Of a stretch of 30,704 nucleotides of DNA, positions 3,676 through 20,039 are shown piece by piece. Position 1 is the stretch's first letter; each line of letters opens with the position of its first letter. Location of the stretch: positions 1 to 30,704 of the IMG/VR virus record IMGVR_UViG_3300020468_000042; one strand, 5' to 3'. The notes under the pieces are model-generated. The model did not search any database, had not been told where the DNA came from, and saw only the letters and a program-made list of their open reading frames with translations. A program made the translations under genes and the position numbers. This DNA comes from a virus.

Positions 3676-4001
3676 TATTCTTCCCAGTCAATAGACTCAT
3701 ACATTTCTTCCCATGTAGATAACAAATATTCTTCAGTACCATATCTAGCTTCAAAGCTACGTCTACCCATACCATGATAACCTTTGTTACCACGATGATG
3801 GTCAACACATAGAGGTATACACTTTACATTTCTTTGAGACATACCCATACCCTGCCTCAAGTGATGTATTTCAGTAGGTGTAGTTTGTTTCTCTCCTGAG
3901 TCTCGACAAGCAATGCATCCAGTTTCAGCCATCTTTTGATACAAAGCTTGTCTTTTCTTTTTGATTACTATAGATAATTTCTTATCTTTCTTGCTTACCA
4001 T
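3669..4001 (-). CDS. Ref-type HNH nuclease (RecA-dependent nuclease family)
   Basis: A 110-residue protein. A basic N-terminus (1-22) precedes a Cys-x2-Cys (C29, C32). The HNH-like core is EIHHLRQGMGMSQRN (H46, H47) and IPLCVDHHRG (C65, H68, H69), followed by GYHGMGRRSFEARYG. The order of HH, IPLC..HHRG, then HG.G...FE..YG is typical of the phage P1 Ref family, a nuclease that cuts DNA bound in RecA filaments and stimulates recombination. Here it sits at the end of an operon with SSB, an annealing protein and an exonuclease, which fits a recombination role. Its start overlaps the LexA-like gene by 20 nt. Family call is good; RecA dependence is inherited from the family, not seen. Confidence 0.8.
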   Translation of the reverse strand: MVSKKDKKLSIVIKKKRQALYQKMAETGCIACRDSGEKQTTPTEIHHLRQGMGMSQRNVKCIPLCVDHHRGNKGYHGMGRRSFEARYGTEEYLLSTWEEMYESIDWEEYY

Positions 4002-4206
4002 CTTGGCTTAATAAGGTGATATTCCTTTGCATATTTGGTTTCATGTCTACGTATCCTAATACATATAATTTTTTTACTATCTTATGTGCGTGGGATTTAC
4101 TGCTTAGCCCAACCTCATCAGTAATTTCCTGATAGGTTGGACTGACACCATGCGTGTCTAGATAGTTTTCAATATGACTAAGTACTGCCAATTGTAAATG
4201 TGTCAT
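3982..4206 (-). CDS. LexA-like winged-helix DNA-binding protein without peptidase domain
   Basis: A 74-residue protein covering only the LexA N-terminal DNA-binding domain. The pattern MTHLQLAVLSHIENYLDTHG, then SPTYQEITDEVGLSSKSHAH with a wing ending in RNITLL, matches LexA (LTxRQ..vldfI, G.sPT..EIA..LGlsS.S, R.I.L). The Ala-Gly cleavage site and Ser/Lys peptidase dyad are absent; the protein ends where LexA would continue. I chose ATG at 4206, which aligns with LexA's start and follows the ssb stop by 1 nt. In-frame upstream starts at 4221, 4224 and GTG 4227 would add a few residues. It probably binds operators as a repressor not removable by self-cleavage. Candidate targets are the GTTC-N7-GTAC sites at 6116-6135 and 7750-7769 (inference). 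Confidence 0.75.
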   Translation of the reverse strand: MTHLQLAVLSHIENYLDTHGVSPTYQEITDEVGLSSKSHAHKIVKKLYVLGYVDMKPNMQRNITLLSQDGKQER

Positions 4207-4207
4207 T

Positions 4208-4618
4208 TTAGAATGGAACATCATCACCAGATGGCTTGGCTTTGAATGGATCTACACTCTCTTTGCTTGATGATTCTTCATCACGTTTGCCTAGAAAGAT
4301 AACATCATTTATTTTTACACTAGGTACTCTGTTGCCATCTTCTTTTTCCCAGTAGTTAAATGTACCAGATACGTGTACTTGTTTACCTTTGGTTAGATAT
4401 GGCATGACTGCATCTATCCTAGACATAGGGTTCTCTGAATAACTATTAGGGAACATGGCACAGTTGTGCCACATAGGTGCAGTTTGTTTTGTGCTTGGAT
4501 CATAAGTATCAGTAGCTAGGGAGAAGACAAGCATAGAGTTACCATTACGTAAGTCTTTTAGCTCAGCATCTTTACCTAGTCTACCGATAAGTCTAATCTC
4601 ACATAGTGAATTAGGCAT
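4208..4618 (-). CDS. ssb: Single-stranded DNA-binding protein
   Basis: A 136-residue OB-fold SSB. It has the family features NEIRLIGRLGKDAELK-like opening (here CEIRLIGRLGKDAELKDLR), the FSLATD core strand, and the beta strands around KGKQVHVSGTFNYWEKEDG and VKINDVIFLG. A flexible Ser/Lys-rich linker leads to an acidic-hydrophobic tip, DDVPF, close to the bacterial DDIPF that recruits host SSB partners. It coats ssDNA during replication and recombination in the cytoplasm. It lies between an unknown 82-aa gene (8-nt overlap) and the LexA-like gene. The bacterial-type tip suggests it recruits host recombination or replication proteins (inference). Confidence 0.9.
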   Translation of the reverse strand: MPNSLCEIRLIGRLGKDAELKDLRNGNSMLVFSLATDTYDPSTKQTAPMWHNCAMFPNSYSENPMSRIDAVMPYLTKGKQVHVSGTFNYWEKEDGNRVPSVKINDVIFLGKRDEESSSKESVDPFKAKPSGDDVPF

Positions 4619-7776: not shown

Positions 7777-8106
7777 CTATTTGAGGTAGCCCTTTCGCAT
7801 CCATGATTGGATCTGTATTGAATCCAACCAGTCAGATACCTTTGGAATGTAACCACAATCCTCAGTTATATGTCGCTCAGCTATTAATCTTACAGGAACT
7901 TTACGTCCATCACTATTGGTTATCGTAGTGCCGAACACTTGTTCACACATAAAGCAACCCTCAGTGTGATGTCGCAAAGCCCTATGTTTTACAGTAGCTA
8001 TATGTTTTTTACTATCATCAAACCAATCATGAATGGCTTGGTAATCCTCTGGAATTCCGCCCCATTTCTGGACTGATGACAGTGCATGATGATAACAATT
8101 AGCCAT
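7777..8106 (-). CDS. DUF6915-like conserved protein
   Basis: A 109-residue protein starting MANCYHHALSSVQKWGG at 8106, with GAGG upstream. A longer frame from 8184 lies inside the previous gene. The sequence has HALSSVQKWGG, PEDYQAIHDWFDDSK, KHRALRHHTEGCFMCE and FGTTITNSDGRKVPVR, then an RHITEDCGYIP segment. This matches a family recalled as DUF6915, found in phages and mobile elements. The His-rich conserved motifs (RALRHH, E...C) suggest metal binding, possibly hydrolase-like, but no activity is established. It overlaps the upstream DUF6878-like gene by 8 nt. Such DUFs cluster with DUF2958 and DUF6878 in accessory parts of phage genomes. Confidence 0.7.
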   Translation of the reverse strand: MANCYHHALSSVQKWGGIPEDYQAIHDWFDDSKKHIATVKHRALRHHTEGCFMCEQVFGTTITNSDGRKVPVRLIAERHITEDCGYIPKVSDWLDSIQIQSWMRKGYLK

Positions 8107-8665
8107 TGTCTTTTTCCTCAAATACATGAGATTCAGATTCACGATAGTAAGTCTCACATTCAATCGTAAGCACACCATCCTCATAGACTACATCACCACT
8201 ACCACCCTCGTTGTTGTACCAATCAATAGATACATAGTTCATATAGTCACCAATAAACTCAGTGATATAATCAGACAGCGTAGTGCTTCTATGTTCTTCT
8301 GATTCATGTGGTTTATACCAGATGTATTTATGTCCTAATCTCATTGGATCACGATAGAAATCTTCCAATGCAAACAATTTATTTCTTTGCTTTTGGTACT
8401 TTGGATCAGTCCAATCTAAATTCTTTACATCATCTAATCCAGCTTCTTTCGTTATAACTTCTCGGTCTGGTATCTCATCTTGTGAAACAAAATGTACACT
8501 TTCAAAGTCACCGCTGTCACCACCACCATTGAAACTAACAGCAAAGTATGTAACATCATGCTGTTTCATGAACCTATGAAACTCTGGTATTGAACGTTCT
8601 TTGAAAGACTTATTCTGTCTTTCTCTACGTTCTTCCCATGTTTCTTCTTGTTTTGTTGTAGCCAT
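8099..8665 (-). CDS. DUF6878-like protein
   Basis: A 188-residue protein. After a charged N-terminus, VTYFAVSFNGGGDSGDFESV gives a beta strand with the GxGDSG motif. The C-terminal part WYNNEGGSGDVVYEDGVLTIEC, then YYRES, is typical of a family recalled as DUF6878 (fuGgGDSG ... NNdGgyGe...). Function is unknown. The start has a strong RBS (AAAGGAGG) and lies just inside a structured leader: a hairpin at 8681-8719 at the likely 5' end of the RNA, a -10 at 8724-8719 and a palindrome at 8725-8743. It appears to be the first gene of a two-gene unit with the DUF6915-like gene. Confidence 0.65.
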   Translation of the reverse strand: MATTKQEETWEERRERQNKSFKERSIPEFHRFMKQHDVTYFAVSFNGGGDSGDFESVHFVSQDEIPDREVITKEAGLDDVKNLDWTDPKYQKQRNKLFALEDFYRDPMRLGHKYIWYKPHESEEHRSTTLSDYITEFIGDYMNYVSIDWYNNEGGSGDVVYEDGVLTIECETYYRESESHVFEEKDNG

Positions 8666-8680
8666 TACAACCTCCTTTGG

Positions 8681-8719
8681 TTGTGCCTGTCCATCTCAAA
8701 CCATAATAAACAGGCACGA
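8681..8719 (-). promoter_or_regulatory. Hairpin at the predicted 5' end of the leader RNA
   Basis: An inverted repeat, GTGCCTGT at 8683-8690 and ACAGGCAC at 8710-8717, extends by one G-U and one U-A pair to 8681/8719. The loop is about 19 nt. In the - strand RNA it would sit at the extreme 5' end if transcription starts just after the -10 at 8724-8719, and it ends next to the AAAGGAGG RBS. It may stabilise the RNA or control RBS access. Confidence 0.45.
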
Positions 8720-8743
8720 TTATATCTATACACCATGTATAGA
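8719..8743 (-). promoter_or_regulatory. Leftward promoter -10 abutting a palindromic operator
   Basis: The - strand carries a perfect TATAAT at 8724-8719. Immediately upstream is an 8-bp perfect palindrome with a 3-nt centre: TCTATACA (8725-8732), CCA, TGTATAGA (8736-8743). It therefore fills the spacer of the promoter, a usual place for a repressor. The -35 at 17-bp spacing is poor (GAATTC), suggesting activator help or weak activity. Which protein binds is unknown. Confidence 0.5.
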
Positions 8744-8753
8744 ATTCATTAAG

Positions 8754-8807
8754 GATAGATAGAAATTGACTAGCAGAACTAATCGTACACCCTAGTATTT
8801 ATCTATC
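8754..8807. repeat. Composite inverted repeat upstream of the 8724 promoter
   Basis: Outer arms are GATAGATA (8754-8761) and TATCTATC (8800-8807). Inner arms are ACTAG (8769-8773) and CTAGT (8792-8796). It lies directly upstream of the predicted promoter for the DUF6878-like gene and downstream of the gene ending at 8856. It could be an activator site or a weak terminator for the upstream unit. The rest of 8808-8855 shows only a weak 5-bp stem (CCAAG/CTTGG). Confidence 0.35.
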
Positions 8808-8855
8808 TACCCCAACATGCCAAGCACTAGTACCTTACGTCTTGGATTTACAGTA

Positions 8856-9212
8856 TTAAAATAATTTGTGTTGTTGAATGTTAGAGTAAGCAATCTTATC
8901 AATAAGTTTCAGGACACAACCAGTCCATTCATCTCTCATGCTTAGTTTATGATAACTCCAAATGTCTTTATGTCTATGAGGTATAGCACTCCTAAACTGT
9001 AAGCTTGTATCTTTTGGACTTATCGTTGCTTGTATTACATCTGGTAAATGTTCATGTACGATACAACCGCAATGCTCAATACCAGTTGCACTCCAATCAA
9101 CAGCACGAATGTCTACATAAATATCTGACTTAGGTATAGATTTGACTTGCTCAAGTGTGCATCTCATATCTATACCTTGCCATTTTACATAGAGTAGTCT
9201 ATGTATTTTCAT
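8856..9212 (-). CDS. Unrecognised protein with Cys/His residues
   Basis: A 118-residue protein starting MKIHRLLYVKWQGIDMRC at the ATG overlapping the upstream stop (ATGA at 9212). A longer frame to 9242 lies in the DUF2958 gene. The first half looks beta-rich (YVDIRAVDWSATGIEHCGC). The second half has several His residues (IPHRHKDIWSYH). No family recognised; scattered Cys and His could bind metal but do not form a known motif. It is the last gene of the unit that begins at 9644. Confidence 0.6.
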   Translation of the reverse strand: MKIHRLLYVKWQGIDMRCTLEQVKSIPKSDIYVDIRAVDWSATGIEHCGCIVHEHLPDVIQATISPKDTSLQFRSAIPHRHKDIWSYHKLSMRDEWTGCVLKLIDKIAYSNIQQHKLF

Positions 9213-9526
9213 AAGCCTTTTTCTTTTTCTATATCTAAACATTCGCGTAAGCTACAAGGCTTCCAGAATTTATCTCTTTCAATTTTTAGTCCCATACCAA
9301 CAGATGTTTCTTCTATCTCATCTATACTTACAGAACCATACTCTGCGTCAGTGATAGAACATACACCCCATGCTATGTTAGTATCTGGATCTAATTCAGA
9401 TAGATACCAAGTACCTAACCCTACTGGATTGAATAGTTTTACAACACCATCAAATTCTTTAGTACCATCTTGTTGTTGATGGTTCTTAATCATCTTCATG
9501 CGTTGTGCTTTCGTTAGTAGTTTCAT
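9209..9526 (-). CDS. DUF2958 family protein
   Basis: A 105-residue protein. It starts MKLLTKAQRMKMIKNH, followed by VVKLFNPVGLGTWYLSELDP, IAWGVCSITDAEYGSVSIDE and GLKIERDKFW. This is the DUF2958 pattern (kLlT..qr..Ll.N, vvKLf.P...aTWLltElDP, fGlcDlg..ElGyvsl.El, l.vERD). DUF2958 is common on plasmids and phages and has no assigned biochemistry. I chose the second ATG (9526) because it is better spaced from AGGAGG; 9529 would add one Met. It overlaps the upstream 52-aa gene by 41 nt and the downstream gene by 4 nt. Confidence 0.8.
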   Translation of the reverse strand: MKLLTKAQRMKMIKNHQQQDGTKEFDGVVKLFNPVGLGTWYLSELDPDTNIAWGVCSITDAEYGSVSIDEIEETSVGMGLKIERDKFWKPCSLRECLDIEKEKGL

Positions 9527-13788: not shown

Positions 13789-13994
13789 TGGCACACACAA
13801 TAGAAGCATTAAGAAAATACAATACCCCAGCTATGAAGAAACTTATCATTGCTGTTAAGATGAGCCATATGAAAGGATTGCCAAAGGAAGCAATGACTGA
13901 CAGAGAGGCAGAAAGAGTGCTTGAATCATTAACACCAGTAACACTTGAGAAGTTATATAAACTAGCAGTGGAACATGACCTCCTTAACTTATAA
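13788..13994 (+). CDS. Small helical protein preceding terL
   Basis: A 68-residue protein, mostly helical and amphipathic (TIEALRKYNTPAMKKLIIAV, then REAERVLESLTPVTLEKLYK). The start overlaps the upstream stop (TAATGG), and its end overlaps the terL start by 20 nt, so it is translationally coupled to the packaging motor. No family recognised. Its placement suggests a packaging accessory role, which is inference. Confidence 0.6.
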   Translation: MAHTIEALRKYNTPAMKKLIIAVKMSHMKGLPKEAMTDREAERVLESLTPVTLEKLYKLAVEHDLLNL

Positions 13995-15477
13995 GCCAGA
14001 CGGTAACGTAATCAAACAATTCATGAAAGATGACTCGTTCTTTCGTGGTCTACGTGGTCCAGTAGGTAGCGGTAAATCAGTATCATGTTGCATTGAAATC
14101 CTTAGAAGAGCATTAGAACAAAAGCCCGGAGCTGATGGGATTTCTAGATCCAGATGGGCTGTGATAAGAAATACTAACCCACAACTCAAAACAACTACCA
14201 TAAAGACTTGGATTGATTGGTTTCCAGAACAAGAATGGGGCAAGTTTCAATGGTCAGTACCTTATACTCATGTAATTAAAAAAGGTAAAATGGAACTAGA
14301 AGTTATCTTCTTAGCACTAGATAGACCAGAAGATGTCAAGAAACTACTATCATTAGAGTTAACAGGAGTATGGATCAATGAAGCTAGAGAGATACCTAAG
14401 TCAATTGTTGACGCATGTACTATGCGTGTTGGACGTTATCCTAGTATGCGTGATGGTGGTCCTAGCTGGTATGGTGTTATAGCTGATACCAACCCGCCAG
14501 ATACAGACCATTGGTGGGCAATCCTAGCAGGTGAAACTGTTATCCCAGATTACATTACAAAGCAAGAAGCTAAGATGTTAGTTAAGCCAGATAACTGGTT
14601 ATTCTTCAATCAACCACCAGCAATGGAAGAAGTGTTTACTAAAGAGGGTGAGCTTGAGGGATACAATGATACTGACAAAAGAGAAAATGGTAAGAATCTT
14701 ACAGAAAATTATTATAAAAATATCATCAGAGGTAAAACTAAATCATGGATTGATGTCTATGTACTCAACAAACTAGGGCAAATTGAAGACGGTAAGCCTG
14801 TATATGAGATGTTTAGACGTGATGTACACGTTGCTAAGTCTGATATAGCAGTCATGAAAGAGGCACCAATACATATGGGCATAGACTTTGGGCTTACTCC
14901 AGCATGTGTGTTTGGTCAAAGAGTACGTGGAAGATGGCTTATCATTGATGAATTAGTAGCTGAAGACATGGGTATACTTAGGTTTTCTGATTTGATGAAA
15001 CAAAAGATGGCAGAGTATCTACCCAGAAACTTTACAATATTTGGCGATCCAGCTGGTGACCACAGGGCGCAAACTGATGAATCTACCCCATTCCAGATAC
15101 TTAGAGGTCGTGGTATTAGTGCAAGACCAACACATTCTAACGATGTTACGTTGAGATTAGAGAGTGTTAATGTTACTTTACAAAGAATGATAGATGGCGA
15201 TTCTGGAATATTGATAGATCCAAAATGTATAAACCTTATCAAAGGTTTTGATGGTGGCTATCACTATCGTAGGATGCAAGTATCAGGGGAAAGATATGAA
15301 GAGAAGCCTAGTAAGAATAGATTCTCGCATGTCCATGATGCTCTTCAATACATGTTATTGGGCGCAGGGGAGGGGCGAGCATTGACATCAGGTGCAAAAC
15401 AAAGTAAACCTGTAGTTGCTAGAAAGAATTTTAATGTTTTTGAATTAAAACCAAAAACAATATACGGGAGAAGATAA
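13975..15477 (+). CDS. terL: Terminase large subunit
   Basis: A 500-residue ATP-driven packaging motor and nuclease. The ATPase domain has Walker A GPVGSGKS (residues 28-35), Walker B with catalytic Glu (VWINEARE, E136) and the coupling motif region ADTNPP (170-175). The nuclease domain has MGIDFG (D304), FGDPAG (D358) and HDALQY (D455), the acidic residues of the RNase H-like fold. Length is normal for the family. It docks on the portal and cuts the concatemer. It is coupled by overlap to the 68-aa gene upstream and to the 86-aa gene downstream (TAATG). Confidence 0.95.
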   Translation: MTSLTYKPDGNVIKQFMKDDSFFRGLRGPVGSGKSVSCCIEILRRALEQKPGADGISRSRWAVIRNTNPQLKTTTIKTWIDWFPEQEWGKFQWSVPYTHVIKKGKMELEVIFLALDRPEDVKKLLSLELTGVWINEAREIPKSIVDACTMRVGRYPSMRDGGPSWYGVIADTNPPDTDHWWAILAGETVIPDYITKQEAKMLVKPDNWLFFNQPPAMEEVFTKEGELEGYNDTDKRENGKNLTENYYKNIIRGKTKSWIDVYVLNKLGQIEDGKPVYEMFRRDVHVAKSDIAVMKEAPIHMGIDFGLTPACVFGQRVRGRWLIIDELVAEDMGILRFSDLMKQKMAEYLPRNFTIFGDPAGDHRAQTDESTPFQILRGRGISARPTHSNDVTLRLESVNVTLQRMIDGDSGILIDPKCINLIKGFDGGYHYRRMQVSGERYEEKPSKNRFSHVHDALQYMLLGAGEGRALTSGAKQSKPVVARKNFNVFELKPKTIYGRR

Positions 15478-15737: not shown

Positions 15738-17315
15738 ATGCCAGTCCAACCAGCTAATCCGCCAGAGATTAATCCATTAGAGTCTCCTGTACAGCAGTTA
15801 CTCAAAAGATATGAACATGCTCGTTCTATAAAAGACCAATGGAAAGGTATCTTTGAAGAGTGTTATGAGTATGCTTTACCACAAAGAGAGAGTTTTTATA
15901 CCGAAAATCCGGGAAGAAGACGTACGGATCGCATATTTGATGAGACAGCAGTAGTAGGTGTACAAGAATTTGCATCAAGATTACAGGCAGGAATCGTACC
16001 AAACTACACCAGATGGGCTGATTTTACTGCTGGTAGCGAAATACCAGAGGAAGATAAGAAAGAAGTTAACATGATGTTAGACAAGGTTACTGAGTATGTA
16101 TTTGAAATATTACAGAACTCAAACTTCTCACAAGAAATACATGAATCGTTTTTAGATATAGCACTTGGCACTGGTGTTATGTTAGTCGAAGAGGGTGATG
16201 CTGTTGCACCAATTAGATTCAAAGCAATACCATTACCTCAAGTATATATGACCTCTGGTCATGATGATAAAGTGGATCATGTCTTCAGAAGACGTATGAT
16301 TCGCATGAAAGAACTAGCGGTAGCTTATCCAAATGCAGAGATATCAGAGAAAATGGCTATGGATATGGCTAAAAATCCAGACAAAAACTGTGAAATCATA
16401 GAGGTAGTGTATAGAAATCACTACAATTTAAAGGAAGAAGAGAACTTTTTTTGTGCAATATCTAAGGAATATGAGGTAAAAATCTACGAAGAAACGTTCA
16501 AAGGGCAAGGATCTAACCCATTTGTAGTATACAGATGGAGTAAATGTGCAGGTGAAACCTATGGTCGTGGTCCATTAATGAACGCACTACCAGCTATTAA
16601 GACATCAAATCTTACAATGGAACTAATATTGGAAAACGCACAAATGGCTATATCTGGCATGTATCAAGTAGAAGACGATGGAGTAGTCAACGTAGATAAT
16701 ATTCAATTGATTCCGGGAACTATCATACCGAAAGCACCGGGCAGTGATGGGTTACAACCTATTGGTGGTACAGGTAACTTTAATGTTTCAGATTTAGTTT
16801 TAAGAGAAATGAGAACCAATATTAAGAAAGCTTTGTATAATGATATGCTTGGCACACCTAATGAAAAAACACCAATGTCAGCTACTGAGGTAGCAGAAAG
16901 ACAAGCAGATTTGTCCAGACAAATAGGGGCAGCGTTTGGTAGATTACAATCAGAGATGGTAACACCAATATTACAGCGTGTTATTTATATTCTAAAAAAA
17001 CAAGGTAGAGTAAAGATTCCTAAAATAAATGGACGTGAAGTTAAAGTTTCTTCATCTAGTCCATTAGCACAAGCTCAGTTTCAACAAGATGTCGCTACAG
17101 TAGACAGGTTTCTTGGCATGATACAGGGCAGAGTAGGACCAGAATTAGCTAATATTATTGTAGACCAGATGGCTGTTGCAAAATATATAGCTAATAAACT
17201 AGGTATCCCTGAAGAATTAGTACGTTCTCCAGAGGAAATGCAAGCAGCTGCGCAACAAATGGCACAGATGATGCAACAACAACAACCGCAGGAGGATGCA
17301 CCTCCTGAACAATAG
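15738..17315 (+). CDS. Portal (head-tail connector) protein, T7 gp8-like
   Basis: A 525-residue protein, close to the 536 of T7 gp8. It matches the podovirus head-to-tail connector family. The N-terminal wing has W..I.EECYEYALPQRESF, followed by RIFDETAVVGVQEFASRLQAG (residues about 66-86). The central stem and clip region contains YRWSKCAGETYGRGPLMNAL (about 264-283), and MSATEVAERQADLSRQIG (about 377-394) is the conserved late motif. The C-terminus is Gln/Met-rich. It would form the 12-mer ring through which DNA enters and leaves. It starts directly after the 86-aa gene and is followed by the Bbp19-like gene. Confidence 0.92.
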   Translation: MPVQPANPPEINPLESPVQQLLKRYEHARSIKDQWKGIFEECYEYALPQRESFYTENPGRRRTDRIFDETAVVGVQEFASRLQAGIVPNYTRWADFTAGSEIPEEDKKEVNMMLDKVTEYVFEILQNSNFSQEIHESFLDIALGTGVMLVEEGDAVAPIRFKAIPLPQVYMTSGHDDKVDHVFRRRMIRMKELAVAYPNAEISEKMAMDMAKNPDKNCEIIEVVYRNHYNLKEEENFFCAISKEYEVKIYEETFKGQGSNPFVVYRWSKCAGETYGRGPLMNALPAIKTSNLTMELILENAQMAISGMYQVEDDGVVNVDNIQLIPGTIIPKAPGSDGLQPIGGTGNFNVSDLVLREMRTNIKKALYNDMLGTPNEKTPMSATEVAERQADLSRQIGAAFGRLQSEMVTPILQRVIYILKKQGRVKIPKINGREVKVSSSSPLAQAQFQQDVATVDRFLGMIQGRVGPELANIIVDQMAVAKYIANKLGIPEELVRSPEEMQAAAQQMAQMMQQQQPQEDAPPEQ

Positions 17316-17323
17316 GAGTCATA

Positions 17324-17611
17324 ATGGCAGAGAAAAAGCCCAATATGCTTATAGGTTTGGACAATATCCAAAGAAAACCGCAAGATGAGGAGAACTTAAA
17401 TACTTTGTTTTACAAACTGTTCACAACCACAGGTGGATCTCAAGTATTAAAATATCTTAAATCTCTTTCTATCGAGGCAGTAGCTGGTCCAGAAGTATCG
17501 GACCAACAACTACGTCACTTAGAGGGACAGCGTTATCTTGTAGGATTAATCCAAAGAAGAGTTAACAAAGGTATAAGTCAAAACGCAATACAGGAGAAAT
17601 CAAATGGCTGA
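17324..17611 (+). CDS. Bbp19-like small virion/assembly protein
   Basis: A 95-residue protein. The central part FYKLFTTTGGSQVLKYLKSL, then LRHLEGQRYLVGLIQRR, fits the Bordetella-phage Bbp19 pattern (lF.t..G..vL.dL ... REGqR.lv..I). This small protein is found next to portal genes in many podoviruses, role not established. It has a good RBS (AGGAGTCATA then ATG) and overlaps the scaffold gene by 8 nt. Position between portal and scaffold supports a head-assembly role. Confidence 0.6.
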   Translation: MAEKKPNMLIGLDNIQRKPQDEENLNTLFYKLFTTTGGSQVLKYLKSLSIEAVAGPEVSDQQLRHLEGQRYLVGLIQRRVNKGISQNAIQEKSNG

Positions 17612-18383
17612 AGAACAAATACAAACAACTGAAGAGACAACACAAGCAGAAGATGTTTCACGTGAAACATTAGATGTACCTGCACCAACTAGACCAGAAT
17701 ATGTACCAGAGAAGTTTTGGAATGATGAAACAGGTGAAGTAAAAACAGAAGACTTAGCTAAGTCCTATGTTAATCTAGAAAAATTTTCTACTGGTAAGAA
17801 AGAAGAAATGAAAGAACAACTGCTTACTGAATTACAAACAGAAGCAGAAGAGGGACTACCAGAAGATCCAGCAGGTTATAAACTACCATCATTAGTGGAG
17901 GGAATTACTGAAGAAATGGTAGAACAAAACCCATTAACTGATTGGTGGCGTAATCATTGCCATGAATTGGGTTTACCTGAAGAAGTATTTCAATCTGGTG
18001 TTAATAATTACACAGATATTCTTATGCAAAATCAACCAGATTTGGATGCTGAAGCAGAAAAATTAGGTGAAAATGCATCAGAAAGAATAGAAGCTGTAAA
18101 TGCATGGGCATCTTCACAGTTTCCACCAGAGGAATTTGAAGCAATACAGATGATTGGTTCTAGTGCTATAGGTATATCTGCACTTGAAAGAATCATGGAT
18201 ATGCAAAAATCTTCTATGGGTAGATCGAGTGAAGTAGCTAAACCAGCTCAAGAACTAACAATCGATACAGTAAAAGAAATGATGAAAGACAAGAGGTATT
18301 TTGATCCAAGACACAGGGATTCTTCTTATGTAAAACAAGTAGATGACGCGTGGGCTAGATTGAATATGGCTGGCAAAGTCTAA
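17604..18383 (+). CDS. Capsid assembly scaffolding protein, T7 gp9-like
   Basis: A 259-residue acidic protein. A disordered Glu/Thr-rich N-terminus is followed by RPEYVPEKFWNDETGEVKTE (a P.yip.kFwd...gevr.e pattern, residues about 31-50), LAKSYVNLEK and a mostly helical remainder. The C-terminal motif RYFDPRHRDSSYVKQVDDAW is the typical scaffold end. It is required to build the procapsid and then leaves. It lies just upstream of the GNAT-like and capsid genes. An exact parS palindrome is embedded at residues 18-22 (VSRET), positions 17654-17669. Overlaps its neighbours by 8 and 1 nt. Confidence 0.8.
   Translation: MAEEQIQTTEETTQAEDVSRETLDVPAPTRPEYVPEKFWNDETGEVKTEDLAKSYVNLEKFSTGKKEEMKEQLLTELQTEAEEGLPEDPAGYKLPSLVEGITEEMVEQNPLTDWWRNHCHELGLPEEVFQSGVNNYTDILMQNQPDLDAEAEKLGENASERIEAVNAWASSQFPPEEFEAIQMIGSSAIGISALERIMDMQKSSMGRSSEVAKPAQELTIDTVKEMMKDKRYFDPRHRDSSYVKQVDDAWARLNMAGKV
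17654..17669. promoter_or_regulatory. Perfect parS (ParB-binding) palindrome inside the scaffold gene
   Basis: The sequence TGTTTCACGTGAAACA is a perfect 16-bp palindrome identical to the canonical chromosomal parS site bound by bacterial ParB (Spo0J). In the scaffold frame it encodes Val-Ser-Arg-Glu-Thr. No ParA or ParB gene is in the window, so the expected binder is host ParB. Only one copy is seen. The sequence match is certain; use by ParB is inference. Confidence 0.75.
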
Positions 18384-18910
18384 TGCTTTATGTTGAAAAG
18401 TCTACGCCAGAACATGCATTTGCTCTGGCGTTTGACCTTAGACAAGAAGACAAATATGAGGTAGCACTAGCAGGTCATACACCACTAGATGCTTTAATTG
18501 CACCTTTTAGATATACAAGACAGGGTGTAAACACGTATACTGTACTCAATACTGGAATACCAGTAGCTATGTTTGGCGTTATATCCACTCCACAAAACGT
18601 CAAACATGGCGCAGTATGGTTTCTTTCGTCCTACAAATTAGACAATAACATGCGTTATTTTACTAAAAGAACTAAAAAATGGGTAGATTACTTCCTTGCA
18701 GACTACGAATATGTATATAACTACATAACAGTAGAACATAAGAAGAACATAAGATGGCTTAAATGGTTAGGTTTTAAATTTAAAACAGAGAAAATTCTTG
18801 TTAAAAACGTTGAGGTGTTGTATTTTTATAGACAGATACAGGGTGTATCTAAAGATATACAGCCCATAATAGGGGACATCGGTCCTAAATGGATAACCGA
18901 TCTAAGCTAA
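18383..18910 (+). CDS. DUF2833/GNAT-like protein in the head cluster (T7 gp13-like position)
   Basis: A 175-residue protein. GIPVAMFGVISTPQNVKHGAVW and the later FLADYEYVYNYITVEH, then IRWLKWLGFKF, match the acetyltransferase-like (GNAT) pattern seen in phage DUF2833 proteins. There a strand-turn precedes a helix and the C-terminal 'I+WLk.LGF' motif. T7 gp13, once thought an internal virion protein, falls in this group. Here it lies between scaffold and capsid. The acetyl-CoA P-loop (Q/RxxGxG/A) is not clearly present, so catalysis is doubtful. Overlaps the scaffold stop by 1 nt. Confidence 0.6.
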   Translation: MLYVEKSTPEHAFALAFDLRQEDKYEVALAGHTPLDALIAPFRYTRQGVNTYTVLNTGIPVAMFGVISTPQNVKHGAVWFLSSYKLDNNMRYFTKRTKKWVDYFLADYEYVYNYITVEHKKNIRWLKWLGFKFKTEKILVKNVEVLYFYRQIQGVSKDIQPIIGDIGPKWITDLS

Positions 18911-18955: not shown

Positions 18956-19780
18956 ATGGCAACGCAAATTAGTACCGCCTTTATTAAGCAGTTTGAAGCC
19001 GAAGTCCACATGGCTTATCAAAGGATGGGTTCCAAACTGCGCAATACAGTGCGTAATACAAATAACGTTACAGGCAACCAAGCACGATTCCAAAAGGTTG
19101 GTAAAGGTTCAGCGTCTACTAAATCTAGACATGGACAAGTCAACACAATGGAAGTTACACACTCTACAGTAGATGTAACATTGGCAGATTACTATGCTGC
19201 TGATTATGTTGATAGCTTAGATGAGCTAAAAACAAACATCGATGAAAGACAAGTGTTAGCTACATCGGCTGCGGCTGCTTTAGGGCGTAAAATGGATCAA
19301 TTAATTATTGATGTACTTGACGCTGGTTCAAACTCAAACAACGTGGTTCATGGTTCAGCAGCTTTAACATTAGCTAAAGCACTAACCGTATATGAAGCAT
19401 TTGGTGAGGCAGATGTACCAGATGATGGTCAAAGATATTTTGTTGTATCACCAGCTGGATGGGCAGATTTACTACAAATCGACCAATTCAGTAGAGCAGA
19501 ATACGTAGGAGAAACTGATTTACCATACGCTGGCGGAATGACAGCTAAAAGATGGCTTGGTTTCTTATGGTTTACTCATTCTGGACTATCAATTTCTAGT
19601 ACAACTAGGGACTGTCATGCATACCACAGCTCGTCTGTTGGTCTTGCTACTGGTTCTGACGTACGTACAGAAATGAACTATGTACCAGAAAAAGTAAGTA
19701 ATTTAATAACTTCATACTTTAGTGCAGGATCTGTCATGATTGACAATGATGGTGCTATTGAATGTCAGATAACAGAATAA
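18956..19780 (+). CDS. Major capsid protein (HK97-type fold)
   Basis: A 274-residue protein preceded by a strong RBS (TTGGAGGCTTAAT then ATG), as expected for the most abundant virion protein. It starts with ISTAFIKQFEAEVHMAYQRMG and contains the E-loop-like QARFQKVGKGSASTKSRHGQ region. The P-domain follows with ADYYAADYVDSLDELKTNID, then RQVLATSAAAALGRKMDQLI and VVSPAGWADLLQI. It belongs to a capsid family common in marine podoviruses. It forms the icosahedral shell around scaffold. Followed by an 82-aa beta-rich protein and a terminator, as capsid genes often are. Confidence 0.88.
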   Translation: MATQISTAFIKQFEAEVHMAYQRMGSKLRNTVRNTNNVTGNQARFQKVGKGSASTKSRHGQVNTMEVTHSTVDVTLADYYAADYVDSLDELKTNIDERQVLATSAAAALGRKMDQLIIDVLDAGSNSNNVVHGSAALTLAKALTVYEAFGEADVPDDGQRYFVVSPAGWADLLQIDQFSRAEYVGETDLPYAGGMTAKRWLGFLWFTHSGLSISSTTRDCHAYHSSSVGLATGSDVRTEMNYVPEKVSNLITSYFSAGSVMIDNDGAIECQITE

Positions 19781-19790
19781 GGAGGATAAC

Positions 19791-20039
19791 ATGGCTTTAG
19801 ATGCAACAAATCTTAAAAAGATAGCTGGTGCTGGCGACATGAATCTCTTTGTTTATAAGAGTACTGACGCTATTGGAACAATTGTAGCTTCGGGTTATTT
19901 TAATAATTCGACTGATGACTTAAAACAGTTTGATACAATTATAGTAACTGGTGCCACAGGTGGTACAGCTACTGTAGATGTTATTACTGTTTCTAGTGCA
20001 ACAGGTGCTACAACAGTTACAACAACTAACGGAACATAA
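19791..20039 (+). CDS. Small beta-rich protein, probable capsid decoration/head protein
   Basis: An 82-residue protein with a strong RBS (AAGGAGGATAAC then ATG), 10 nt after the capsid gene. It is Thr/Val/Gly-rich and beta-patterned (FDTIIVTGATGGTATVDVIT). Such short beta proteins directly after the capsid gene are usually decoration or head-stabilising proteins. This is position-based inference. It is followed by the hairpin at 20047-20072. Confidence 0.65.
   Translation: MALDATNLKKIAGAGDMNLFVYKSTDAIGTIVASGYFNNSTDDLKQFDTIIVTGATGGTATVDVITVSSATGATTVTTTNGT

Follow-up and report, generated by a model that had tools for sequence, protein, structure and literature searches.

Why should a phage in which no partition gene is found carry, inside a gene for head assembly, a perfect copy of the bacterial chromosomal parS site? 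The locus lies in a stretch of viral DNA of 30,704 bp (IMG/VR record IMGVR_UViG_3300020468_000042; hereafter the window), in which the 16-mer TGTTTCACGTGAAACA occurs at positions 17654-17669 as a single copy, with no second match at two or fewer mismatches. The earlier note on this DNA had claimed a perfect copy of canonical parS with a chance expectation of 1e-5, and both statements stand: the match to the chromosomal-type consensus is exact, and we recomputed the expectation for an exact 16-mer as ~1.2e-5 from base composition (30.7 kb, 36.2% GC). At three or fewer mismatches, shuffled sequences gave a mean of 0.18 matches for the window. The parS palindrome in this phage is not the product of chance. 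A three-mismatch match at 19988-20003, which lies within an 82-aa ORF and is found again in relatives at a fixed distance, was set aside as a coding coincidence. With a probability of roughly 0.8, we consider the palindrome to be a host-type parS, that is, a borrowed centromere that is selected as DNA and would load host ParB onto the phage genome.

The 16-mer reads VSRET on the + strand, as residues 18-22 of the 259-aa ORF at 17604-18383. The label of scaffold gene given to this ORF by the earlier note is correct, since it matches the Pfam family Phage_T7_Capsid (capsid assembly protein, 3.1e-8), and the gene is flanked by portal and Bbp19-like genes and by gp13-like and major head genes. The features on which the argument draws are the following.

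3982-4227, - strand: LexA-type DNA-binding HTH protein (PF01726)
13975-15477, + strand: terminase large subunit (phrog_2, 5.5e-23; 80% identity to Hodr)
15738-17315, + strand: portal (head-tail adaptor) protein, used for finding and ordering relatives (phrog_332, 1.3e-98)
17324-17611, + strand: Bbp19-like gene, 95 aa, with the clade B parS just upstream of it (PF25181, 4.7e-7)
17604-18383, + strand: scaffold (capsid assembly) protein, 259 aa, whose variable N-terminus holds parS (PF05396 Phage_T7_Capsid, 3.1e-8)
17654-17669, read as VSRET on the + strand: parS palindrome TGTTTCACGTGAAACA, an exact match, conserved or relocated in relatives and identical to SAR11 chromosomal parS
18383-18910, + strand: T7 gp13-like internal virion/scaffold-region protein (PF11090, 5.3e-8; phrog_308, 1.4e-28)
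18956-19780, + strand: major head protein (phrog_3437, 7.3e-65)

Among isolates, the window phage is nearest to Pelagibacter phage EXVC031P Hodr (TerL 80%, portal 74% and scaffold 54% identical), whose host is the SAR11 strain HTCC1062; from kinship with Hodr only, we take SAR11 to be the probable host of the window phage as well. A relative, G023 (34,261 bp, ~95% identical to the window), overlaps itself round the circle and is apparently whole-length. The genome of the window phage is thereby estimated at ~34 kb, and the ~3.5 kb beyond the window, judged from G023, consists of tail-fibre-like ORFs. The earlier note had seen no parA or parB, and profile searches of the window and G023 were likewise negative: ParB_N (PF02195) was not found in 14 phage records, these two included, and was positive in three SAR11 genomes, while the ParA-type AAA_31 (PF13614) was not found in 12 phage records, again with both included. 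Tyrosine integrase (PF00589) was also not found in 12 family records, window and G023 among them, with HTVC019P as the positive control. Because none of the three was found in the apparently whole-length, ~95%-identical G023, parA, parB and a tyrosine integrase are very probably absent from the remaining ~3.5 kb as well. A P1-like phage ParABS system with a private ParB found no support, as ParB_N and ParA were not found in the phage records searched, and an integration site found none either, as tyrosine integrase was not found in the 12 family records. In a phage without a tyrosine integrase, the LexA-type protein could be the repressor of an unintegrated carrier state. On the - strand of the window, at 7777-9526, three proteins of the early side have matches to DUF6915, DUF6878 and DUF2958; DUF6878 and DUF2958 occur in plasmids and other mobile elements.

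Relatives were gathered by two portal-based scans of IMG/VR and ordered in a tree of 75 distinct portal proteins. One parS-like site each is present in 62 of the 75, and it has two mutually exclusive homes that lie 320-350 bp apart: 37 sites are coding (the VSRET codons of the scaffold gene) and 25 are intergenic. In clade A, to which the window belongs, the scaffold N-terminus holds the site in all 30 members, and the same position holds a degenerate form in all seven members of the Hodr subclade (centres CACATG, CACAAG and CAAATG). In clade B, set apart by a branch with a support of 100, the site occupies the non-coding gap between the portal and Bbp19-like genes (25/25); the conserved PEKFW of the scaffold protein follows ~390 nt downstream, and the scaffold N-terminus lacks VSRET there. 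Just upstream of the intergenic parS, most clade B members have a second conserved stretch, AAAGTACCTTTGCTTCC (e.g. L350 4420-4440). No parS-like site is found in two subclades of the tree (6 + 7 members). Whole records of the family hold exactly one parS site or none, and no further match at two or fewer mismatches was found beyond the two homes in 1.31 Mb of family loci, which are partly redundant and overlapping; 16 apparently off-site loci reflect failures of the landmark search, and their sites sit at the clade A or clade B offset.

This distribution bears directly on whether the palindrome is a mere by-product of an N-terminal scaffold peptide, VSRET, that matters in its own right. It can be said for such an explanation that VSxET persists in members with a degenerate palindrome (VSNET in Hodr, VSHET, VSQET). 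However, the residues beside VSRET are hypervariable, and the codons behave otherwise than those elsewhere in the gene. Among 23 dereplicated members of clade A and the Hodr subclade, the codons were GTT in 23/23, TCA in 22/23, CGT in 18/18 where the residue is Arg and GAA in 19/19 where it is Glu; for comparison, Arg codon usage is 13% CGT and 70% AGA. Codon identity between pairs sharing the same residue was 1.00 for V, 0.91 for S, 1.00 for R, 1.00 for E and 0.73 for T, against 0.59 over the rest of the gene, and the third base of the T codon, the only loose one, is the outermost base of the palindrome. Free variation of the synonymous codons among relatives, which the earlier note had named as refuting its claim, is thus not observed; the codons are near-frozen. 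Because of this, and because the clade B palindrome lies outside any clear gene and without VSRET, the protein cannot explain the conservation; the peptide-based explanation is largely refuted, and we hold it to be very improbable. At the level of sequence, then, the palindrome is kept as DNA, whatever the protein read from it.

A conserved palindrome may also act as RNA, here as a hairpin with a 6-bp stem and an ACGU loop on the mRNA, serving for example translation control or mRNA stability. Palindromes do fold, variants at T5/G12 retain a U-G pair, and TGTTCC..GGAACA is a compensatory change, yet the folding energies are ordinary (z -1.1, -0.1 and -0.2), it is the would-be loop that is conserved while the outer pairs are freely broken in clade A, and the distance to start codons is unlike between the clades. 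A search of Rfam gave no match, and no terminator is present at the site. We regard a hairpin as decidedly improbable.

The likely host group carries the site in the same form. In Pelagibacteraceae genomes located with a SAR11 16S probe, the 16-mer recurs on the chromosome, with few exceptions as a single copy, inside rsmG, which lies between mnmG and parA; it reads NVSRET there, and parB follows parA. In a wider sample, a match was present in 81 of 117 genomes (mostly incomplete), nearly all a single GTTTCACGTGAAAC. By these genomes, the likely host group has ParB, and its usual single parS is this very 16-mer. Natural host variants either have an outer base altered or take the asymmetric form GTTTCACGTGGAAC, and both kinds recur in the phages; GTTTCACGTGGAAC lies in rsmG adjoining parA in 5/5 host cases and is common in clade B phages. 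Three SAR11 ParBs retain Arg173 and Gly201, the parS-specific pair, and half-site positions 1 and 6 decide between ParB and Noc specificity (Jalal et al. 2020, PMC7383237). The bases concerned, G2/C15 and A7/T10, are kept in 60-62 of the 62 phage sites. Taken together, the codon test, the non-coding clade B copy and the identical host site support a selected site of host type, and in this part the interpretation of the earlier note holds; the binding of host ParB that it proposed, with genome coating, effects on location, ParB titration or late-gene regulation as outcomes, stands as a prediction.

Two further explanations must contend with this likeness to the host. The site might be a parS-like operator for a phage-encoded DNA-binding protein, either a repressor or a late regulator; palindromic operators are usual, and the phage does have the LexA-type HTH protein and many unassigned small proteins. 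However, the sites match host parS exactly, its natural variant included, no ParB-like phage protein was found, no other ParB-type DNA-binding domain was present among the window proteins scanned, and the site is a single copy remote from any promoter-like match. We consider an operator of this kind improbable. Alternatively, the shared 16 bp and the shared reading frame (VSRET) could mark a residue of host rsmG, left by gene transfer or at an attachment site. Here, the flanks compared by eye show no visible homology past the 16 bp, the phages have no tyrosine integrase, and the site changes position and lies within or next to essential head genes, all of which render this origin extremely improbable.

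It is reasonable to postulate, under the preferred reading of a borrowed centromere, that host ParB, for which the 16 bp are enough, would during infection load as CTP clamps on the phage genome, that these clamps would slide off the site across the surrounding late genes, and that host ParA, possibly with condensin, would handle the phage DNA like a chromosome origin. ParB loading and all that would follow from it we infer from the sequence comparisons. A lytic cycle can physically accommodate such loading: in engineered phage lambda carrying parS, ParB loads on the DNA and development is not blocked (PMC13190303). The lambda-parS / CFP-ParB reporters thus offer a lytic genome with parS that is coated by ParB from the cell; there the site was inserted artificially, whereas here it is natural and conserved.

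As to what a borrowed centromere would be used for, we tentatively favor, at somewhat less than an even chance, the idea that host ParABS positions or partitions the phage genomes, because one centromere is enough for that; this use would include phage DNA that persists unintegrated as a carrier plasmid. The organization of concatemers for replication or packaging is possible and less likely; slightly less likely still is the titration of ParB off the host's usually single parS, and control of late genes would be a doubtful use. Set out as an alternative in its own right, titration would have many replicated phage copies act as decoys that strip ParB from the host parS, so that segregation is arrested or the nucleoid is released for takeover. 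With almost every SAR11 genome limited to one parS, a handful of phage copies would already exceed the host site in number. A decoy, however, should be present several times in each phage genome, and exactly one copy is observed; we think this variant of ParB loading unlikely.

Some observations speak against a general need for the site. Hodr, the sole isolate of the group, has the degenerate site TGTTTCAAATGAAACA and nonetheless infects HTCC1062, and the site was not found in 11 further isolates, of which ten are pelagiphages of other types and one is the Methylophilales phage MEP301. Given these isolates and the two subclades without a site, parS is not generally needed for SAR11 infection. 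From the degenerate site of Hodr and the subclades without one, it follows that some lineages, at least, can infect without the element; it may instead matter while the phage persists or is carried, or in certain hosts.

Among known systems, the closest in sequence is the SAR11 rsmG-parA-parB locus itself (an alphaproteobacterial ParABS/parS), which has the same 16 bp, coding as VSRET, usually once per genome; unlike that chromosomal locus, the phage site stands without parA or parB and in a head-assembly region. Plasmid prophages such as P1, N15 and the extrachromosomal mycobacteriophage prophages encode their own ParA/ParB, or an analogue, and a private centromere (in part PMC7157519). In both cases a centromere is borne on phage DNA, but here the cis site is alone and in host form. 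Phages that use dif/XerCD mimic a host chromosome-maintenance site in cis, for integration, without a matching phage protein. They are likewise cis mimics lacking a phage partner, with dif leading to integration and parS to putative ParB loading. No description of natural phage parS sites without ParAB was found in the open-access literature searched, including that on SAR11 and Hodr.

The exact 16-mer has at least 120 matches in IMG/VR, while the reversed (mirror-image) palindrome occurs once, so that exact parS is at least 100 times commoner than this control. Outside the window's family, the IMG/VR stretches listed have no match to SAR11 ParA, ParB or RsmG, and 48 of 50 parS-bearing contigs tested gave no ParB_N match. 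In six viral contigs, unrelated by these searches and of GC 0.27-0.70 (L117, L151, L080, L111, L132 and L144), exact parS lies in head or packaging genes: a ClpP-like head protease, a head scaffold, and terminase large and small subunits. The position is mostly N-terminal, and the reading often VSRET. Two viral contigs, L080 and L053, are short and hold exact parS in arrays of five; neither gave a ParB_N match. It may be that phages widely carry host-form parS without partition genes, with host ParB, ParA and SMC organizing their genomes and the SAR11 group as one case; we see the odds of this as balanced, and the contigs may include misassigned host DNA. On that broad reading, the sites that unrelated phages have in head and packaging genes would be independent cases, and they share in the even judgement.

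The case is open to testing, as codon-neutral changes would erase the site and leave the scaffold protein unaltered, and nature supplies relatives in which the site is exact, degenerate, relocated or absent. SAR11 phages rank among the most abundant viruses. Our observations suggest that this group of marine phages borrows or disturbs the chromosome-segregation machinery of its hosts. If this is true, a 16-bp site in cis would by itself let phages exploit that machinery.
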